From contig JAFPUC010000014.1 of assembly GCA_017413255.1 (NCBI GenBank), forward strand, positions 1 through 64,000: a stretch of DNA of 64,000 bases, given 5' to 3'. The notes beneath the pieces are model-generated. The model did not search any database. It saw only the letters and a program-made list of their open reading frames with translations, and had not been told where the DNA came from. This document shows positions 13,278-60,774 of this stretch, one piece after another (position 1 is the stretch's first letter; each line of letters starts with the position of its first letter). The DNA comes from Aeriscardovia sp. Lineage in GTDB: Bacteria; Actinomycetota; Actinomycetes; Actinomycetales; Bifidobacteriaceae. Made by a program: the position numbers and the translations under genes.

Positions 13278-15171
13278 TTACTCCATTTCCTTTACGTTGC
13301 TTTCAATAAATGCGATTTCTTCAGAAGACAGCCCATACTTTTTGTAGAGCTGTCGGTCGATATCGGGGATAGATCGGCTCCAGTCGATGTCTGAGGAAGG
13401 AGTGAAGTCCTGCCACGGTACGTACTCCCAAGTGTCTTTGGGGTTATGCTGCGTTACCTTTAAAATTCCCAACATTGCCCTGGCAAATTTACTCTTCACG
13501 TATTTCAGGCACGCTTCGGCTTCCCGCTCGGTATCAAAAGAGCCGATGCTCAGGAAAGTCCTTGTATGGCCGATGAGCGGCTGGCCGATGAGCGGAGTGG
13601 ATAACGTCTCTCCAAGGGCGCCCGAACCGTTAGATTTGGGGACGAATACTTTCCACTTTGCAAGATCGCCTTGATCAGCCCCCCGTATGTAGTCCCGGTT
13701 AATGTATTTATATACGCGCCTGTTTTTGTCATCCAGGCCCAGTATTTGCGCCCATTCGCCTGTACCTTCAGGTTTTGAATCGAAAAAGACAACGCCGTTT
13801 AACTTTTTTCTTTGGCTTTTAAAGCTGTTTGTCGTAATCCTTCGCTCTTGTCCGGAAGAGCTTATATAGGAAAAGACCCATGGGATTTCCTCACCCATTT
13901 TTTCCGAATAATGGTAATCGGGCCTCACAAAGTCCATAAGAGACCGGGCGGAGGATGGGCTTACCTTTTTCTCTACAGAATTTAATTCGGGAAAAGGCGT
14001 CAGAGATTTTTGGAGGTTGCTAACTTTTTCCCTATCCCAGAGGGAGATGCACACCCCCCCCCCTCAGATCGATATTGGGGAAAACTTTTTTAGAATCCTG
14101 TTCCCGGTAGAGTACGGAAAAATGAGGATCATTTAAAATCTTTTCGCTCCACTTCCTATTTACCCTTCCGGCTCCGCTCAAAAAACGCGCAGGGGTAATG
14201 AGCTCCACTTTATCTGCTACATGGTAAGCCTGCTCCATGAACTGCGGATAAATGGAGGCGTGAAAACTCGCCCCGCTTTCCTTTTCGGCACTTTGATACG
14301 GCGGATTGCCTATACAAGCGTAAAACCGCTTCATATCTCTCCTTTCTTCCAGCCTTATATGACTGAATAACGTCGATTTTGGCTGGTCCCAAAAGCGAAT
14401 CCTGCACGTCAGATTGTCATTGAAAAGATCATTTGTCACACTGCCTTTCCCTTTTACAGGCGAAGACTGGGTACGTCCATCCATCTGCCAGAAGTTCCAT
14501 GAAACTATGTTGGCCTCTTTGAGAAGGAGATCGCGATCGCATAACCTGTGAAAGCGCGCCACAAAGTTTTCAAGGAAGGCGTCTAACACATTGACGCGGG
14601 CTATAAAAAGGCTGTCGCCCTGGAACTCGTAACCGTAGACGGACTTAAGCGCCGCTTCGGCCTTTTCTATCCAGTCCTCATCGCCTTCCGCGGCCTTTTC
14701 GGTCTGTTGGAGCTTTCTGTCCAAAATCCCGACCCGTTTTTCCAATGGGATAGGGTTTCCGGTAGCAGTATCGTAGCGGGAAGTTATAAAGGGCGCCTCC
14801 CCGCAGGCAATCTCAAGGTAAGTCTTGTCTCGCCCTTCCGGCTCCTCCCAAAGAGTCTCTGTCATCTGTGAAACTACTTCAAAGGGGGTAAAGACCTCCG
14901 CATGGGTTTTAACCCTGGACTGCTTTTCCGCGTCCTCCTTGAAAGCCCGCGGACGAATTGCTGATACCGAGCTCTGGCAGACCGGGCTTTCCCAATCGCG
15001 CCCCTTATAGGCGTCAGTGGCCCAGATGATATTTCTTTTGCGTGATCTGTCGAGGAGCAGGATTTTCAAAAGCTCGGAATACAGGGAATCGTCTTCGTAC
15101 CGGATCTTGTCGAGGCTGAAAGAGAAGGGGAAAAGTTCATTTTCACCGTTTTTAAGTCCGGTTTTTTTCAT
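13278..15171 (-). pseudogene. Eco57I-type N6-adenine DNA methylase, frameshifted at a G10 tract (probably phase-variable, OFF)
   Basis: Two overlapping open frames form one gene: ATG 15171 to a stop at 14032, and a frame from 14054 to 13278. The N-terminal part has VFTP (93-96), motif I LEIACGEAPF (119-128) and catalytic NPPY (289-292); the C-terminal part resembles the target-recognition half of Eco57I-like enzymes. The junction is ten G residues on the coding strand (14054-14063). With nine, the product would be 630 residues and read IDLRGGVCISLWDRE, the usual conserved block after NPPY in this family. With ten, translation ends seven codons past the tract. The longer frame from TTG 15219 lacks an RBS, so ATG 15171 is preferred. 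I treat it as a switchable gene rather than a dead one, since both halves look intact. Confidence 0.85.
14054..14063 (-). repeat. G10 homopolymer: predicted phase-variation switch in the methylase
   Basis: Ten C on the plus strand, ten G in the coding direction. Tract lengths of 9 or 12 keep the methylase in frame; 10 does not. Flanks are TCTGA and TGT in coding direction, identical to the flanks of the tract at 52168-52177 read on the plus strand. Confidence 0.85.
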
Positions 15172-49977: not shown

Positions 49978-50969
49978 TTACTCTAGTTTATCTTTTCGAG
50001 CTGCCCATAAATAAGCGTTTGGTAAGTTATCCGCAATATCGCTTGCAATAATGGGATGGCCAGGCCCTTCAAAGCTTTCGCTTGCGATCTTGGCCGACAG
50101 GTTGTGAAGATAGGCCGCGGCTGCGCAGGCTCTCACAAACTCCCTTTCGCTCTTTGGCTTAGTCAGAGCAAGAAAGCCCGTAAGAAAACCTGCCAGTACG
50201 TCCCCCGTCCCTGCACAGGCTAAATAATGGCAATCCGCCTTTACCTCTTCGCTAAATCCTTTGAAGGCTACGACAGTTGTAGCCCCCTTTAAAAGCACAG
50301 CGCATGAAAAAAGACGGGAGGCCAGGTTTGCAAAGTGAACAGGATTTTTGAGAATGCTTCCCGCCTCCGCCTCCACGCCTTTCTTTTTAAGAAGCTTCTG
50401 GAGCTCTCCGGAATGAGGGGTAATCACTGCAGGAACCGCGGGGGAAGAATCGAGAATGAGATCCATGCCTCCCGCATCCAAAACCAGCCACCCCCTTTCC
50501 TCGCGGTACATGGAAGAATCTACAAGCAAGCGCATGGCCAGATCGCTTCTGGAGTCGTGAAAGATGTCGGAAATGCCGGAACCTATAAGAAAGCTGTCGC
50601 ACTTTCCCACGCCCATAACCATTTCAGGGCAGCTGTTTAAAACTAAAGAATTGCAAAACTGGCTTTCCCCAATGTACCTGCAAAACCCTGCCCCGCTTCT
50701 CAGAGCTCCCTTAGAGGATAAGACGCCGGCTCCGGGGAAGCGATCAGATCCGGTCAAAAGGCCGGCCACGCCCCTTGAGTACTTATTGGAATCTTTATCA
50801 GGATAGGTAATTACTGAGGCTGCCTCTTGTCTGCTAATAACTATTTTCGCCTCATCTCCTCTGTCTACAGTCGATTTATGTGACCCTAGCTTTATTCGTG
50901 CTTTTACTCTAATTCCAACTATATAAACTGCATTGAAAACTGTAGCATTGTGACTTAATTTTTATCACT
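49978..50969 (-). CDS. nnrD: ADP-dependent NAD(P)H-hydrate dehydratase, with an unresolved start
   Basis: Repairs damaged NAD(P)HX in an ADP-dependent step. Ribokinase-like fold with VITPHSGELQKLLKK, LLKGATTVV and the active-site ACAGTGDVLAGFLTGFLAL. The first in-frame normal start is GTG 50769, but the frame stays open upstream to a stop near 50970 and encodes IVISRQEAASVITYP and NKYSRGVAGLLTGS, the conserved N-terminal block of the family. No ATG, GTG or TTG occurs in that upstream part, so the true start is either ATT/ATA or has been lost. The range given is the open frame, not a proven gene. The epimerase partner domain NnrE is not fused here. Confidence 0.8.
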
Positions 50970-51099
50970 AAAATGAGCAAAAATTTAAAATCAAAAGAAT
51001 AAGCTGTTTCGGTTAATTTCAGTATGTCAGTTTTTGTCAATCAGTTGGCCTGCATTAATCTGGCACTCATCGCCATTTTCAACTACTTTTTTGCTTGCC

Positions 51100-52273
51100 T
51101 TAGCGAAGGAAAAAAATAAGTTCAGATGGGCTAATTCCTACCGCTTCAAAGCATTTTTTCAGTTTGCTAATCTTGTAATTGTTGTTATCAGAAACCTTAA
51201 CCTCGCAATCATCTGTAACTTTAACCCATGTGCGAGAATCCTCCCCAGATGGCCTATCGCAGGTATGCCGGAGCCATGTCGACTCCCTGGGAATCTCCAA
51301 ATGACTGAGTAAGTCATATTTCTTGCAAAGGGCTGTAATGACTTTCCCCATCATATCCGACCAGTTCTTCACATCTTTAATGCCGGAACCTTCGAATGAA
51401 TACCCGGAAATTTTTAGATTCAGTGAGGATGTATCGCTCGGACAGTCTGCCAGGCTGATTTCCTGCTCAAGTTCCTCATCCTTTGTTTCTGTTTCCGAAT
51501 TTTTTTGCTCTACTTCAGGAGGATTCAAATTTTCCCTTATTTTGGTTGCCGGGAAGATTAGCGTCCAAATTTTTTTAGCATTCTTCATATCTTCGCCGCC
51601 GGATCTTCCTCCAGTTTTTATTTCTTTTGCGGTGGCTTTGTAGAGCCAATCCAGTTCTTCTTCATCCCTTTCAATCAGCCAGCGTTTGAGTCTTGAAGCA
51701 TATACTGTGGCCGGAAGATCGTCCAAGGTATTTTTTAGATTCGTGACGGTATAGTGCAACAAGGTTTCAACATCGCCGTCACTTAACTTTGACAGTTTAA
51801 ACATCCAATAGGGTTCCGGATCCATTACATTGGGATCCTTGCTGTCCGTGTAGAATCTGAATTCATCTCCATTGGATAAGATTCCGATTTTTACAGTATT
51901 TATTTGGCCACCGGGTGCGCGAAAATATTCGTCCAACTGATTTACATGCTTGTCCAGAGGTTCGCCAAGCTGTTTGCATTCAACAAGCATAACGGGTTGG
52001 GAATTTAAAAGAAGGGCATAATCCACGCGAGTAGCGGAGCTTCTAACGCCCCTGTCAAATTCCGGGATTGCCGCTTCGGGATTGTTGGGATCTTGAAGAT
52101 TAAATCCAAGATCCCGCATAAAAGGCTCTATTATATAGTTTTCAGTTTGTTTTTCATTCCATTCTGAGGGGGGGGGGTGTTGTTCTCGCGGATTGTGCCT
52201 CATACTGGGAACTAACCCTCTCTTTCAAAGCATCCAGCTTCGACTTCAGCTCAGAAAATTGTTCTTGCTCCAT
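51100..52273 (-). pseudogene. HsdR_N-domain protein with a C10 tract near its start (probably phase-variable, OFF)
   Basis: Residues about 30-190 match the N-terminal nuclease-like domain of type I restriction R subunits in its stand-alone form (ENYIIEPFMRDLGFN, VDYALLLNSQPVMLVECKQLG; the ECKQ is the PD-(D/E)xK core). No helicase follows; a variable Glu-rich linker (about 235-275) and a C-terminal domain (TWLRHTCDRPSGEDSRTWVKV) do. The coherent N-terminus begins at ATG 52273 (MEQEQFSELKSKLDALKERV, a helix usual in this family) but joins the rest only if the ten-C tract becomes nine: 390 residues. As sequenced, only ATG 52203 (MRHNPRE...) is in frame with the body and lacks a good RBS. Confidence 0.75.
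52168..52177 (-). repeat. C10 homopolymer: predicted phase-variation switch of the HsdR_N gene
   Basis: Ten G on the plus strand, ten C in coding direction. Lengths 9 or 12 put ATG 52273 in frame with the nuclease domain. On the plus strand the flanks are TCTGA and TGT, the same as the coding-strand flanks of the methylase tract. Confidence 0.8.
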
Positions 52274-52758
52274 GGTTTCAATTTTATATCTGTTTTATAT
52301 CTTTCCAACGTTATACCTCTTAGTTTCGCAAATATATTTACGTTGTGTCTAAACAAAAAAAGTCAGAACTTTTCAAGAGTATGGATTGGAGGAATTTTTT
52401 AAAAAGATTAATCTAGATAATTCAAACCTTATGAATATCAAGCATATCTAGCGATCCTTCTTTGTCGATTCCTTCAAACCTTTGGTGGAAGTAAGTAACA
52501 CCGGAAAATCTTCCAGATTATTGAGGCCAAAAAATCGGGATCATCATTGCAATTTAATCCCTATGTTCACTTTGTTGCTCTGAATCCGGTTAAATATTCT
52601 GCAATTTTTCAATGACGTTGAAAGATGCCACATTAAGTTCTATTCACTTGCACTTTTTTCCAAATGTTTTATGGGCCTATAAACGTATCCGATTTGTATA
52701 CTAATACAATTTTGATAAACTATAACAGCCTTAAAAATAAGCCAAGAGAGAAGAAGCA
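52274..52758. other. AT-rich intergenic stretch
   Basis: No gene, tRNA or clear hairpin terminator. It must hold divergent promoters for the HsdR_N gene and the acidic membrane protein; TATACTAATACAATTTTGATAAACT near 52696 is a promoter-like part. Strongly AT-rich compared with the rest of the window. Confidence 0.5.
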
Positions 52759-54480
52759 ATGAGTGCAGATGATGAAAATCCTCATGACGACAAACCGTTA
52801 GAGGATGAGGCAATGGATGTGACTGGCGATCGAGCAAATCAAACACAGGAACCTGCTCCTATAAATGAGGAGAAAAACTCGGAAAATGAAGAGGGACAAT
52901 TTGAAGCAGAAAACAATGAAGGAGATATCTCCGCTTCTGAAGTAAACAATGTGCAAATAGAAAATGCAGGCGAGGAGAATAGCGCTAAGGCTGTTAAAAA
53001 GTCCAGATTGAAATTAATTCTTCCCCTCTACCTCATAGGGCTTATAAGCCTTTCCATTACTGCTCTTGGATTTTGTTTTGCGCCCTTTACAGAATACGTT
53101 CATGCCAACTATAAATTCGTTCCTACGTCCAACTTTTTATGGGTTTGGATATGCGCGATAATTGCCGGGGCTATATTTCTCATAGATCTCATAGTTGTGC
53201 TCAGTTTAAAGGGCGCAAAACGCATAGGATCGCTGAAAAAGCTTTTTCTTGCAAGATTTTCTGTTCCACTGGCAGCATCGGTTATTGTTTGCATTATCAT
53301 AGGGCTAGTTGGAGGTACAAGCTACTATAACCGCTATAAAGCCGAAGAACTTGCAAGAAAAGAATATGGAGAAAATAACAAAACCTTGACCGCACCCATA
53401 ACTTCTCCTTCCACTATTCTTGGACAAGGCTACAATCAATGCTATCCGCCTACAGGAGTTACCGAATCGGGCTCTTACTACATAGACAGTTATGAGGCAA
53501 GTATAACTGGGGAGGCAGGAACGCTAACTGGAGGAGCCACCTCAGCAGAATTATTGCAAACTACAATCGAATTGGGATGCGTACTTAATGCATTAAATAT
53601 TCAATCACCCCAATCCGGCACGTCTGCCTTAAATTATTTATTAACGAATGCTGCCTCAAAAGCCACTGCCGGAAATGATGGTATTCTGTCTGGGCAAAAA
53701 AACTTAATTGAAGGCCCTTATGAAGTTAGTGTGATTACGCTTCTAACGACGAGCCTGTCTGCACCTTCACCGTTATCTGGAATAATATTTACCATTTATC
53801 CTCACCCTATGACCATAGATGGTTATAAATGGAACACTGGAATACTTCCCAATATTAATACCATTAATGCAAATTCCACCTTTGATAGCTCTTCCTCAAA
53901 CTCTATTTCAGTGTTAGGTCAATTAACTGATGAATTGGCTCAAATCGTCTATAATTCCACGGATGACGACGAAGATTTTTCCTCTTTAGCTTTAAATAAT
54001 TCTGACGAAAATGATAATTCTTCAGCGAATTCAAATAGCAGTAACGAGCCGGGAACTCAAGGCCCTTCTTCCATGAGTTCAACGACAAATAGTTCCAATA
54101 ATGCAGCTGCAGCTATAGCTTCCACAGCTTTATGCGCAAAATACGAAACAGAAAGTGAAATTTCAGAAGATTATCTAGATGTTGAAAGCAATCCAGAGAA
54201 TGGAGGTCCAGGGGTTAATGTTGGTGGTGCGAGTGGTAAATGGAGTCCAGTATTGGCGTGCGTTGCGCAAAAACTTCAGATGCCAACTTTGATTAAAACA
54301 GAATTAAAGGTACGGATAGCTCAGTCATCTGCTGCTGTCGCAAAGGGTCAAAATTCAAATTTGGGAGGCATTAATGCAAATTGGAATTTAAGCAATGGGG
54401 GCAAGATTTATCTTGTATTCTGGCCCGCAGATCTTATGCAGCCTTGGGAGGCTTCATTTACTCCCACAAATCAACAATAG
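52759..54480 (+). CDS. Unrecognised acidic membrane protein with a large external domain
   Basis: 573 residues. An acidic, Asn/Glu-rich N-terminal tail (about 1-75) is followed by three hydrophobic segments (about 86-107, 124-152 and 168-190), then about 380 residues rich in Ser, Asn and Thr, most likely outside the cell. An Asn/Ser-rich low-complexity stretch (about 400-455) and a C-terminal GKIYLVFWPADLMQPWEASF are present. I recognise no family. Codon use is AT-rich, unlike the flanking housekeeping genes, which suggests transfer. Its stop codon is directly abutted by the convergent HNH gene's stop. RBS GAGAGAAG before the ATG. Confidence 0.8.
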   Translation: MSADDENPHDDKPLEDEAMDVTGDRANQTQEPAPINEEKNSENEEGQFEAENNEGDISASEVNNVQIENAGEENSAKAVKKSRLKLILPLYLIGLISLSITALGFCFAPFTEYVHANYKFVPTSNFLWVWICAIIAGAIFLIDLIVVLSLKGAKRIGSLKKLFLARFSVPLAASVIVCIIIGLVGGTSYYNRYKAEELARKEYGENNKTLTAPITSPSTILGQGYNQCYPPTGVTESGSYYIDSYEASITGEAGTLTGGATSAELLQTTIELGCVLNALNIQSPQSGTSALNYLLTNAASKATAGNDGILSGQKNLIEGPYEVSVITLLTTSLSAPSPLSGIIFTIYPHPMTIDGYKWNTGILPNINTINANSTFDSSSSNSISVLGQLTDELAQIVYNSTDDDEDFSSLALNNSDENDNSSANSNSSNEPGTQGPSSMSSTTNSSNNAAAAIASTALCAKYETESEISEDYLDVESNPENGGPGVNVGGASGKWSPVLACVAQKLQMPTLIKTELKVRIAQSSAAVAKGQNSNLGGINANWNLSNGGKIYLVFWPADLMQPWEASFTPTNQQ

Positions 54481-55185
54481 CTAAATTTCCAACTTATCAT
54501 GCTTGCTCCCATTACAACGAGAGCACAAAACCTGAAGATTTGAGGGCACGGTTTTTCCGCCCTTTGCAATCGGAATTATGTGGTCTATTTGAAGCCCTAC
54601 TTTATCCGGCATGTACTTACCGCATATTTGGCAGGTATAGTTGTCCCTCTTCATGATTTCTTCTCTAAGTTTTGGAGTGAGAAGTTTCCTTTGGTTGGCG
54701 CTGTCCCACTTTTTCAGGGTGGTCTCGTAATTTATGGAGGCCAGCATTTCGTCCCTTTGCGCCAGGTATGTGTAATTGCAGGCAAAGCCCCCTACTCTGT
54801 TTTTGACCTTATAAGCCGTTCTCTGATAATTTCTTTGCTGGTACCTTGTCTGAAGGCGGAAGACTACAAAGCGATAAGCATGATCGTCATCTACAAGGGC
54901 TTTAAATTGTTTTTTCCGCCTTCCTTTTAAATGGCTGTTTTCTATCTGCCTTCTACACTCTTTCTTCCATTCCCTTATTCTGGCGTGTTCTTTTTCTATA
55001 TCCCTCATGCCGTGTTCAATAAGGTACTCGTCTACCAAATCTTGTGTGTCAGGCTTTTTTCTGCCGGAAATATCTATAGTGGCGGTAAAGTAGGGATAGC
55101 CCTCGAAGGGGGATTTAAGTACAAGGTAGAGGATGATGGGGGCTGCGATCGCGATCAGTATTATGCAACTTATTGCTATAAACAT
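54481..55185 (-). CDS. Membrane-anchored HNH endonuclease
   Basis: 234 residues. One N-terminal membrane helix (residues about 3-24) is followed by a basic, Arg/Tyr-rich cytosolic region and a C-terminal HNH domain (about 178-230). CQIC and CSRC bind zinc, LQIDHIIPIAKGG holds the catalytic His, and NLQVLC has the Asn. Nuclease domains tethered to the membrane are typical of antiviral or DNA-uptake functions; which applies here is unknown. Convergent and base-adjacent with the acidic membrane protein. AT-rich composition. Confidence 0.85.
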   Translation of the reverse strand: MFIAISCIILIAIAAPIILYLVLKSPFEGYPYFTATIDISGRKKPDTQDLVDEYLIEHGMRDIEKEHARIREWKKECRRQIENSHLKGRRKKQFKALVDDDHAYRFVVFRLQTRYQQRNYQRTAYKVKNRVGGFACNYTYLAQRDEMLASINYETTLKKWDSANQRKLLTPKLREEIMKRDNYTCQICGKYMPDKVGLQIDHIIPIAKGGKTVPSNLQVLCSRCNGSKHDKLEI

Positions 55186-55637
55186 ACCCCTCCCATTTTA
55201 TCTGCAAATGCCTGTTGCAAACTGCTTTTAATTGTAAAGTGGCTTGTATATCCGCGCTAATTGTGCCGATCTTCACCCTGTTTACCTAAAGAAATTCCTG
55301 TCTAAAACCCTGAATTCCTCACGATGAATACAATTTGCCATCAAAGTTGAATACGTTGCGCTTCTTACGGCGATCTCTTGCCGTACTCACTTCATGAGCG
55401 TTTTACATGGGAGCATCTGCAGACCCCCGTTTATATCTTTTGAAATTTACAGATTCTATTTGGATTCTTGCCAGTATTATCAACAGGAAATCTGTCCGCG
55501 TTGGGCATTTTGTGTGTACAGCGCCCACGGGTGCAAACGGCAAATTTTGTGACAAATAGCCTGCTTCCCTAGTCTCCCCTTTCTGCAAATTTGAGACCCC
55601 CTTGCCTCAAATCGTATCTGTACCACTCCTTGCCCGT
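55186..55637. other. Intergenic stretch without genes
   Basis: About 450 AT-rich bases. I see only short chance frames, no RNA gene and no terminator; it presumably holds the HNH promoter. Confidence 0.5.
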
Positions 55638-56024
55638 TTAATAAAAACCGATTGATTCAAACATATGTCTGCTTTGAGGGTTAAAGGAATAAATATTCGC
55701 CCTAACAAAATCCATGTCTTTTTCGCGGGCAAGTTTTAACATTTCCTTTGCGCAGCGCCGTCCGATATGCCGGTTTTGAAATTCCTTGCAGACTACAATG
55801 GCAATTTCCGCGCTATCTCTTAAAGAAACGTCTCCAACTAATTTTCCCCTGTATTCGATGAAATAACACTCTCCATGCGAACAAAGAAACTCATACATGC
55901 AGTGCAAAAGATTTAGATCATAGGGCCTGTCTCGGTTGTAGACCTGTTTGCATACGTCCACATCTTGGTACCGGGGTAAAGAAGCCTCATCATTTTTTGT
56001 AATAGGGAAGCAATTTGATTTCAC
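55638..56024 (-). CDS. GNAT-family N-acetyltransferase
   Basis: 128 residues. CYFIEYRGKLVGDVSLRDSAEIAIVVCKEFQNRHIGRRCAKEML contains beta-strands 2-4 and the acetyl-CoA loop (QNRHIGRR in place of Q/RxxGxG/A, residues about 84-91); NPQSRHMFESIGF near the end is motif B of the fold. It lacks about 20-30 residues compared with common GNAT proteins at the N-terminus. The substrate is unknown. It ends the AT-rich block. RBS not obvious. Confidence 0.75.
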   Translation of the reverse strand: MKSNCFPITKNDEASLPRYQDVDVCKQVYNRDRPYDLNLLHCMYEFLCSHGECYFIEYRGKLVGDVSLRDSAEIAIVVCKEFQNRHIGRRCAKEMLKLAREKDMDFVRANIYSFNPQSRHMFESIGFY

Positions 56025-56210
56025 TATCTACGATTCGTTTTTTCAACTTCATTTCTCCGCTGCAAAATGCTTTAGTGAAATCTCAGATTGTTTTTTCTGC
56101 CGGATGCGTATTTGCGCGCTCTAGGCAGCCCTGATCTAGAGTTTGTACCTTGGGGAGGCTGTCGCCTTTCCTCGGCTGCATTTGCGCAGGCCAAAATCTT
56201 TTGATGAATT
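56025..56210. other. Spacer between the GNAT gene and the tmRNA terminator
   Basis: No gene or RNA is recognised here. Chance frames only. Confidence 0.5.
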
Positions 56211-59371: not shown

Positions 59372-60774
59372 GCACGCAGTTCTCCCTTGAGGGCCTTTGC
59401 AAATTCCCTAAACTTGTCTCCGCGCTCCCCCATATCGCTGAACTGATCTCTGGAAGCGCAGGCAGGGGCCAGAAGCACTGTGTCTCCGGGTTCGGATGCT
59501 TTGTAGGCCTCATCTACCGCCTTTTTCATTGCGCCAGATCCGTCTTCTTCCTTTATTTCCGTAAAGGGAATTTGAGCCTCCGAGAGCGCTTTTTTAAATT
59601 CTTCTCTGTCTTTGCCTATAAGAATTGCTTTTTTTACCTTTCCATGGGCTTTTTCAAGAAGGGCGCGCATATCGCAGTTTTTGGCTTCCCCTCCCACTAT
59701 CCAGATTATTCCTTTGCCCTCCAAAGCCTTTAGGGCCGCCAGGGCAGAAGCTGGGTTAGTGGCTTTAGAATCGTCTATAAATTCCACTTTCCCCCCTTCC
59801 TTTTCCACCCTAGGGCCGTCTTCGAGCCTGTGGGACTCGGGCCTGAACTTGGAAAGGCCCACTCCGACGTCTTCAGGTTTTACCCCCATTGCCAGAGTTG
59901 CGGCGCAGGCAGCCAGGGCGTTTTCAAGCCTGTGCGCAGGTACGCCCCCTGCGAGCTTTAGGCCGGAAAGCGCATCTTCTTTGCACACCCTTCCGTAGGC
60001 AAAGGCGTTATCGAAGATCCAGCCGTCTTCTATTCCAACCTGTGCCGGGGCGGGTTTTTTAAGTGAAAAGCCCACTTCAATGCATCCCATATTTACATTT
60101 GCGCTTTTGGCAGCTGCCGCAGTGACGGGATCGGAAGCGTTGTAGATTACAGCCCTTTTCGCATTTTCAAATACCTTGGCCTTGTCCCTGCGGTATTCTT
60201 CCATGGATCTGTGCCAATCGAGGTGATCTTGGGCAAAGTTGGTCCAGACTGCAACTTCCAAAGCAAGAGATCGGGTAAAGTGAAGCTGACTGCTGGAAAG
60301 CTCTGCTACTACCACCTGGGCTCCGGGCTTTCTGCAGGCCAAAGTGAGAGGATAGCCGGTATTTCCCCCCTCGGCAACGCAGATTCCGCATTCCTCGAAA
60401 ATTTTGGTTATCATCTTCACCGTGGTCGTTTTGCCATTGGTGCCCGTAACGCCAATCCATGGAATGGAGCGGCCTTCTTTGTCGCGCGGGCGCGTTTTCC
60501 ACGCAAATTCCACTTCGCTCATTATGGGAACATGATTTTCTTCAATGGCCTTCACGAGCTTGGAAGCGGGGGCAAAGCCGGGGGAAACTACCACGGTCGT
60601 TATATTTTCCCAATCCACCTGGCCGGGACTGGAAAAATCAGCCTTCCCCTTCTCGTCAAAGGTTTCGCACTTCACCCCCTCCTTTTCCAAAAGATCCTTT
60701 ACAGCTAAGCCCGAAACTCCAAGCCCTGCCACAAGGACTGTGTCTAGAAATTCGCCTCTTCCTATAATTGCCAT
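59368..60774 (-). CDS. murD: UDP-N-acetylmuramoylalanine-D-glutamate ligase
   Basis: 468 residues. Adds D-Glu to UDP-MurNAc-Ala. GVTGTNGKTTTVKMI (about 130-144) binds ATP, and the C-domain has DDSKATNPASALAALKALEGKGIIWIVGG and LLAPACASRDQFSDMGERGDKFRE. Overlaps murG; 11 bases from mraY. Confidence 0.96.
   Translation of the reverse strand: MAIIGRGEFLDTVLVAGLGVSGLAVKDLLEKEGVKCETFDEKGKADFSSPGQVDWENITTVVVSPGFAPASKLVKAIEENHVPIMSEVEFAWKTRPRDKEGRSIPWIGVTGTNGKTTTVKMITKIFEECGICVAEGGNTGYPLTLACRKPGAQVVVAELSSSQLHFTRSLALEVAVWTNFAQDHLDWHRSMEEYRRDKAKVFENAKRAVIYNASDPVTAAAAKSANVNMGCIEVGFSLKKPAPAQVGIEDGWIFDNAFAYGRVCKEDALSGLKLAGGVPAHRLENALAACAATLAMGVKPEDVGVGLSKFRPESHRLEDGPRVEKEGGKVEFIDDSKATNPASALAALKALEGKGIIWIVGGEAKNCDMRALLEKAHGKVKKAILIGKDREEFKKALSEAQIPFTEIKEEDGSGAMKKAVDEAYKASEPGDTVLLAPACASRDQFSDMGERGDKFREFAKALKGELRA

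Follow-up and report, generated by a model that had tools for sequence, protein, structure and literature searches.

The locus and its nuclease

The window, the whole stretch of 64,000 nucleotides analysed here, contains on its minus strand a gene for a putative HsdR-type nuclease, in which a short leader and the nuclease frame meet at a run of ten cytosines. Genomes of the genus are referred to by G numbers, G000 being that of the window, and the features of the locus are as follows.

51100–52167, minus strand: HSDR_N domain and C-terminal part, 355 amino acids in an open frame that is out of the leader frame at C10 (Pfam HSDR_N, 1.1e-12)
52154–52156, minus strand: TGA closing the leader frame at C10, with a 39-residue product (frame translation)
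52168–52177, minus strand: C10 tract (G10 on the plus strand), beginning at codon 33 of the HSDR_N gene
52178–52273, minus strand: leader of 32 codons that starts at ATG 52273 and runs up to the tract, MEQEQFSELKSKLDALKERVSSQYEAQSARTT, predicted to be helical and conserved in G001, G002, G005 and G006
52201–52203, minus strand: ATG that shares the nuclease frame at the current tract length only (frame translation) and is no start in relatives
52759–54480, plus strand: acidic membrane- or surface-type ORF of 573 residues between the HNH and HSDR_N genes, without Pfam match
54481–55185, minus strand: HNH nuclease gene whose product has a hydrophobic segment at its N-terminus; in G001, G002 and G006 the HSDR_N gene follows it directly

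The nuclease combines the HSDR_N profile match with the catalytic D, ExK and QxxxY of HsdR-type PD-(D/E)XK enzymes. Residues invariant across nine sequences include E17, D61, E75, K77, Q89 and Y93 (with D61, E75-x-K77 and Q89-x3-Y93 numbered from the ATG at 52203), which we take to fit a complete HsdR/RecB-like PD-(D/E)XK site. The protein matches HsdR of EcoR124I weakly in the PDB (E=0.003), PADLOC and NCBIfam return weak type I/IIG matches only, and a structure prediction from a two-row alignment reached a pLDDT of 36. The features of a type I HsdR are missing: HSDR_N is the sole domain found in 390 residues, with no SF2 helicase, and neither hsdM nor hsdS lies beside the gene. The protein is thus classed, from its sequence, as a stand-alone HsdR-type PD-(D/E)XK nuclease without methylase or helicase. 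We found no paper that gives such stand-alone HsdR_N proteins a role; a study of Campylobacter jejuni records one from a phage-resistant strain and describes its role as unclear (PMC8713573).

The gene order murC-GNAT-HNH-HSDR_N-nnrD-alr is common to the genomes wherever the available sequence shows it, and because of this shared order the HSDR_N gene appears to be resident rather than carried on a mobile island. The HNH gene with its hydrophobic N-terminus is the usual upstream partner, from which the HSDR_N gene of the window is parted by the 573-residue ORF; a related, shorter ORF pair occupies the same site in G005, and none is present in G001, G002 or G006. No Rfam family was found in 50600–56200, and promoter and terminator scans scored at chance level. 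In G002 a second HSDR_N paralogue adjoins a DNA-methylase-like ORF of 974 amino acids (L075 1349-5777), which suggests a possible association of such stand-alone nucleases with genes for modification.

The tract and its reading frame

The C10 tract lies at exactly the coordinates that the original prediction gave, and the frame arithmetic offered with it is right. At a length of nine, 32 leader codons (52273–52178), three proline codons and 355 further codons sum to 390; a length of 12 gives a leader–nuclease fusion of 391 residues, and at ten the two parts are out of frame, such that translation from ATG 52273 yields MEQEQFSELKSKLDALKERVSSQYEAQSARTTPPPLRME before the stop. The likening to contingency loci by 5' placement is fair, with only 32 codons ahead of the tract, and the gene is indeed OFF in the assembled sequence, as it is in all three tract-bearing relatives. 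The presence of a C10 is by itself only mildly unusual for this composition (0.62 expected per 64 kb, two found in the window); what exceeds chance is its position and its conservation.

Seven genomes of the genus were searched, one per species and at least two of them metagenome-assembled, and five hold the gene (the G001 copy being split over two contigs); a match in G004 was rejected as a different, long HsdR-like protein. In four of the five a C9 or C10 stands at the homologous place, C9 in the three besides the window's, among flanks that differ (ACAACA-C10-TCA, GTTA-C9-TTCG, GTAA-C9-TCG and GTAA-C9-TTTG), and tracts of this kind are scarce, at about 2–9 per genus genome of 0.6–0.93 Mb. 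An invariant tract, which had been named in advance as evidence against a switch, is not what the comparison between species reveals: length (C10, C9, C9, C9), flanks and required length all differ. The gene therefore has the anatomy of a phase-variable one, with a long simple repeat inside the ORF (C10, codon 33), frame translations that flip between full-length and truncated products on gain or loss of a unit, and a repeat kept across homologues of four genomes at differing lengths.

Since a comparable run has been retained in this position by relatives, the tract is very probably an on/off switch, and the conserved position, the shared leader and the changed flanks all support this part of the original prediction. 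We regard it as probable that the tract is a contingency (phase-variation) switch of a stand-alone HsdR-type nuclease which serves in defence or interference and is mostly kept off. The in-frame lengths are 9 or 12 in the window, 8 or 11 in G001, and 7 or 10 in G002 and G005, and the lengths observed are 10, 9, 9 and 9, which makes four of four OFF as assembled, in assemblies where short reads from metagenomes may miscall homopolymers by one; this count alone is not significant ((2/3)^4 = 0.2).

Further long tracts occur in the genomes, and those in restriction-type genes bear on how the count is to be read.

14054–14063 of the window, minus strand: C10 on the plus strand, G10 in the gene, of an Eco57I-type methyltransferase; a length of nine restores FPNIDLRGGVCISLWDR and ten splits it
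G000:C3:59628–59638 (L047): G11, longer than any other C/G tract of the genome, ending 15 nt before the ATG of an mcrB-like AAA gene
59984–59992 (L047): G9, about 350 nt further upstream of that gene's G11
L055 (G000:C13:134729–134737), L073 and L081: G9, G9 and G10, respectively, in a mod-type methylase gene (N6_N4_Mtase), some 85 codons from its start

Only three C/G tracts of at least ten occur in the 928-kb genome, all of them in or beside restriction-type genes. The sibling tract lies in the Eco57I-type methylase, a gene that belongs to a methylase plus helicase/T5orf172 operon, and codes there for the conserved GGV in FPNxDLxGGVCISLWDR. Four copies were found in the genus, each with one G in excess and all in the same phase. 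The AAA protein downstream of the G11 is assigned to Pfam AAA_5 and is, as we read its sequence, mcrB-like. The mod-type methylase is ON (G9) in G000 and G006 and OFF (G10) in G003, and is likely a phasevarion. Long tracts thus appear to cluster on restriction-type and surface-type genes, the pattern of contingency loci.

It is against these counts that recoding has to be weighed, by which slippage of the ribosome or of RNA polymerase on the tract would yield some full-length nuclease from an OFF gene, with no genetic switch. None of the four HSDR_N copies and none of the four sibling-methylase copies is in frame in the assemblies (eight of eight OFF, chance 0.039 at 2/3 each, which becomes nine of 11 and 0.23 when the mod gene is added), and the methylase copies share a single phase, a constancy that random drift gives only rarely; the eight of eight could also reflect something other than free switching. 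However, the tract is longer than the frame requires by one C in G000 and G001 and shorter by one in G002 and G005, so the shift needed is opposite in the two pairs and no single directional signal would serve all, nor do the homologues have the same frame relation that is expected of a programmed frameshift. The mod-type gene, moreover, reads through its tract in two species out of three. RNA polymerase that slips in both directions might account for the opposite shifts. The phase errors in both directions favour replication slippage with drift rather than a fixed signal for recoding, and we consider recoding unlikely.

The N-terminus, selection and the proposed switch

The helical, MEQEQFSELKS-type leader is common to all five genomes with the gene, and in the tract-less homologue of G006 the same leader runs without interruption into the nuclease (MEQIQFAELKRRLKVLKDNLTSEY...RPPEWQESQLEAYIIEPF). 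Because G006 reads from leader to nuclease unbroken, the leader from ATG 52273 is, on this comparison, taken as the genuine N-terminus, and the homologue alignment that had been proposed as a check on it bears it out. In more distant members from other Bifidobacteriaceae genera, too, about 20 residues precede the conserved Glu. It is very unlikely, then, that ATG 52203 or ATG 52119 provides a working nuclease with another N-terminus at C10, which would mean that the gene is not OFF. From ATG 52203 a frame of 367 codons is open at the current tract length, but the equivalent ATG in the tract-bearing relatives G005, G001 and G002 is out of frame and soon meets a stop, and homologues that start there, the counter-evidence named in the original prediction, were not found. 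In these three relatives Leu or Phe stands in place of the Met at 52119, a position after the invariant Glu17; a start at this point would lose the helix with that Glu.

Selection points the same way. When the leader of the window copy is compared with that of G005 or G001, 68–80% of synonymous and 5–10% of non-synonymous sites differ, with pN/pS of 0.07–0.14 and Fisher p of 5e-7 and 2e-10; the start of the nuclease domain has the same purifying pattern, and the nuclease frame is free of stops in four genomes. The leader is thus under purifying selection. As leader and domain are both kept though every tract-bearing copy is OFF, we infer that the joined, full-length protein has to be produced at times. 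Gene decay or assembly error, whether as a true frameshift in a dead gene or as a wrongly called tract length, is hardly credible, since for all the poor ribosome-binding site before ATG 52273 (TTGAAACC vs TTGGAGGC in G001/G002), the ORF inserted between HNH and HSDR_N and the MAG-quality sequence, it is opposed by the purifying selection on leader and domain, by the stop-free domain frame and by the presence of the tract in independent assemblies.

The tract and its frames, the conserved leader, the intact nuclease motif and the conserved tract position are direct observations, and from them the contingency switch can be pictured as follows. During replication, the tract would gain or lose single C's through slipped-strand mispairing, and its length would presumably vary within a population. 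At a length of 9 or 12, the ON state, leader helix and HsdR-type nuclease would be made as a single protein (390 amino acids at nine); other lengths would lead to an early stop, after 39 residues at C10, and to no complete nuclease, a state presumed inactive. Because no methyltransferase partner lies nearby, the nuclease is probably a costly DNA-degrading enzyme of defence or interference, off in most cells and ready in a minority, and by analogy defence seems its most likely role. One may speculate, with considerable doubt, that a resident, vertically inherited nuclease without a protecting methylase is silent in most cells and stochastically released, leaving a small fraction with an active DNA-degrading defence, and that several restriction-type genes of the genus stand under independent switches as a combinatorial, mostly-off repertoire.

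Known switches and further tracts

In phase-variable type III mod genes (phasevarions), stochastic frameshifts switch a methylase and hence the epigenome. The HSDR_N gene would share with them a stochastic frameshift in a restriction–modification gene, and a mod-type gene with a tract is also present in the G000 genome; unlike in phasevarions, the nuclease alone would be switched. The type IIG restriction–modification gene cj0031c of C. jejuni is ON at G9, when it restricts phage, and OFF at G10, and 75 of 88 isolates typed were G10 and 13 were G9 (PMC4889913). The HSDR_N gene resembles it in having a 9/10 tract in a restriction gene, but cj0031c has its own methylase where the HSDR_N nuclease has none, and the two are not homologous overall. 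Replication slippage has been demonstrated at intragenic G-tracts of sortase-pilus genes of Bifidobacterium breve UCC2003 (PMC9187656), a member of the same family, where slippage joins a leader ORF to the main ORF that the tract splits from it, just as it would here; the target in B. breve is a surface pilus and here a nuclease. In Gardnerella, of the same family too, homopolymer tracts vary between 9 and 10 among colonies, and methylases are among the genes; in the parts of that report drawn on here, the tracts lie mostly upstream of ORFs, with many surface proteins among the genes and no HSDR_N gene named (PMC11287997).

By its anatomy, the HSDR_N locus would work like the B. breve, Gardnerella and C. 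jejuni systems. The tract mechanism is already known, and the unusual part is the stand-alone nuclease as its target, of which no report was found in the literature searched. The locus would take homopolymer switching in the Bifidobacteriaceae beyond surface structures, to genes of restriction type in a ruminant-gut genus with small genomes, and provides a testable case of a nuclease alone, without methylase, as the switched gene. Annotation pipelines would mark such a gene as truncated or pick the wrong start.

Other tracts were seen in passing. Two large ORFs are preceded by C11 tracts, at distances of about 55 and 87 nt (L079 528-538; L082 2981-2991). One ORF, of secreted type with a signal-peptide-like start, has at least 1135 amino acids (G002) and the other at least 964 (G004); the tracts are possible promoter-spacing switches. 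Two C9 tracts stand in similar intergenic sequence, TTTATCCTAGATA-C9 (L053 3095-3103 and 13300-13308); the region around them has a large ORF of transporter/peptidase type and small ORFs, present in two copies, that resemble membrane proteins. In another Bifidobacteriaceae genus a C11 lies just ahead of the ATG of an HSDR_N homologue (L100 1373-1383), with C6 in a sister species (L102); it was rejected as a switch of the same kind, as in-frame stops come after the tract. Finally, an 18-mer, ACACCCCCCCCCCTCAGA, is common to both tracts of the window (14051–14068 and 52163–52180), with two exact matches where 0.08 are expected with up to three mismatches; an inserted element was rejected as its origin, since relatives have not kept the 18-mer and the tract is read from opposite strands in the two genes.
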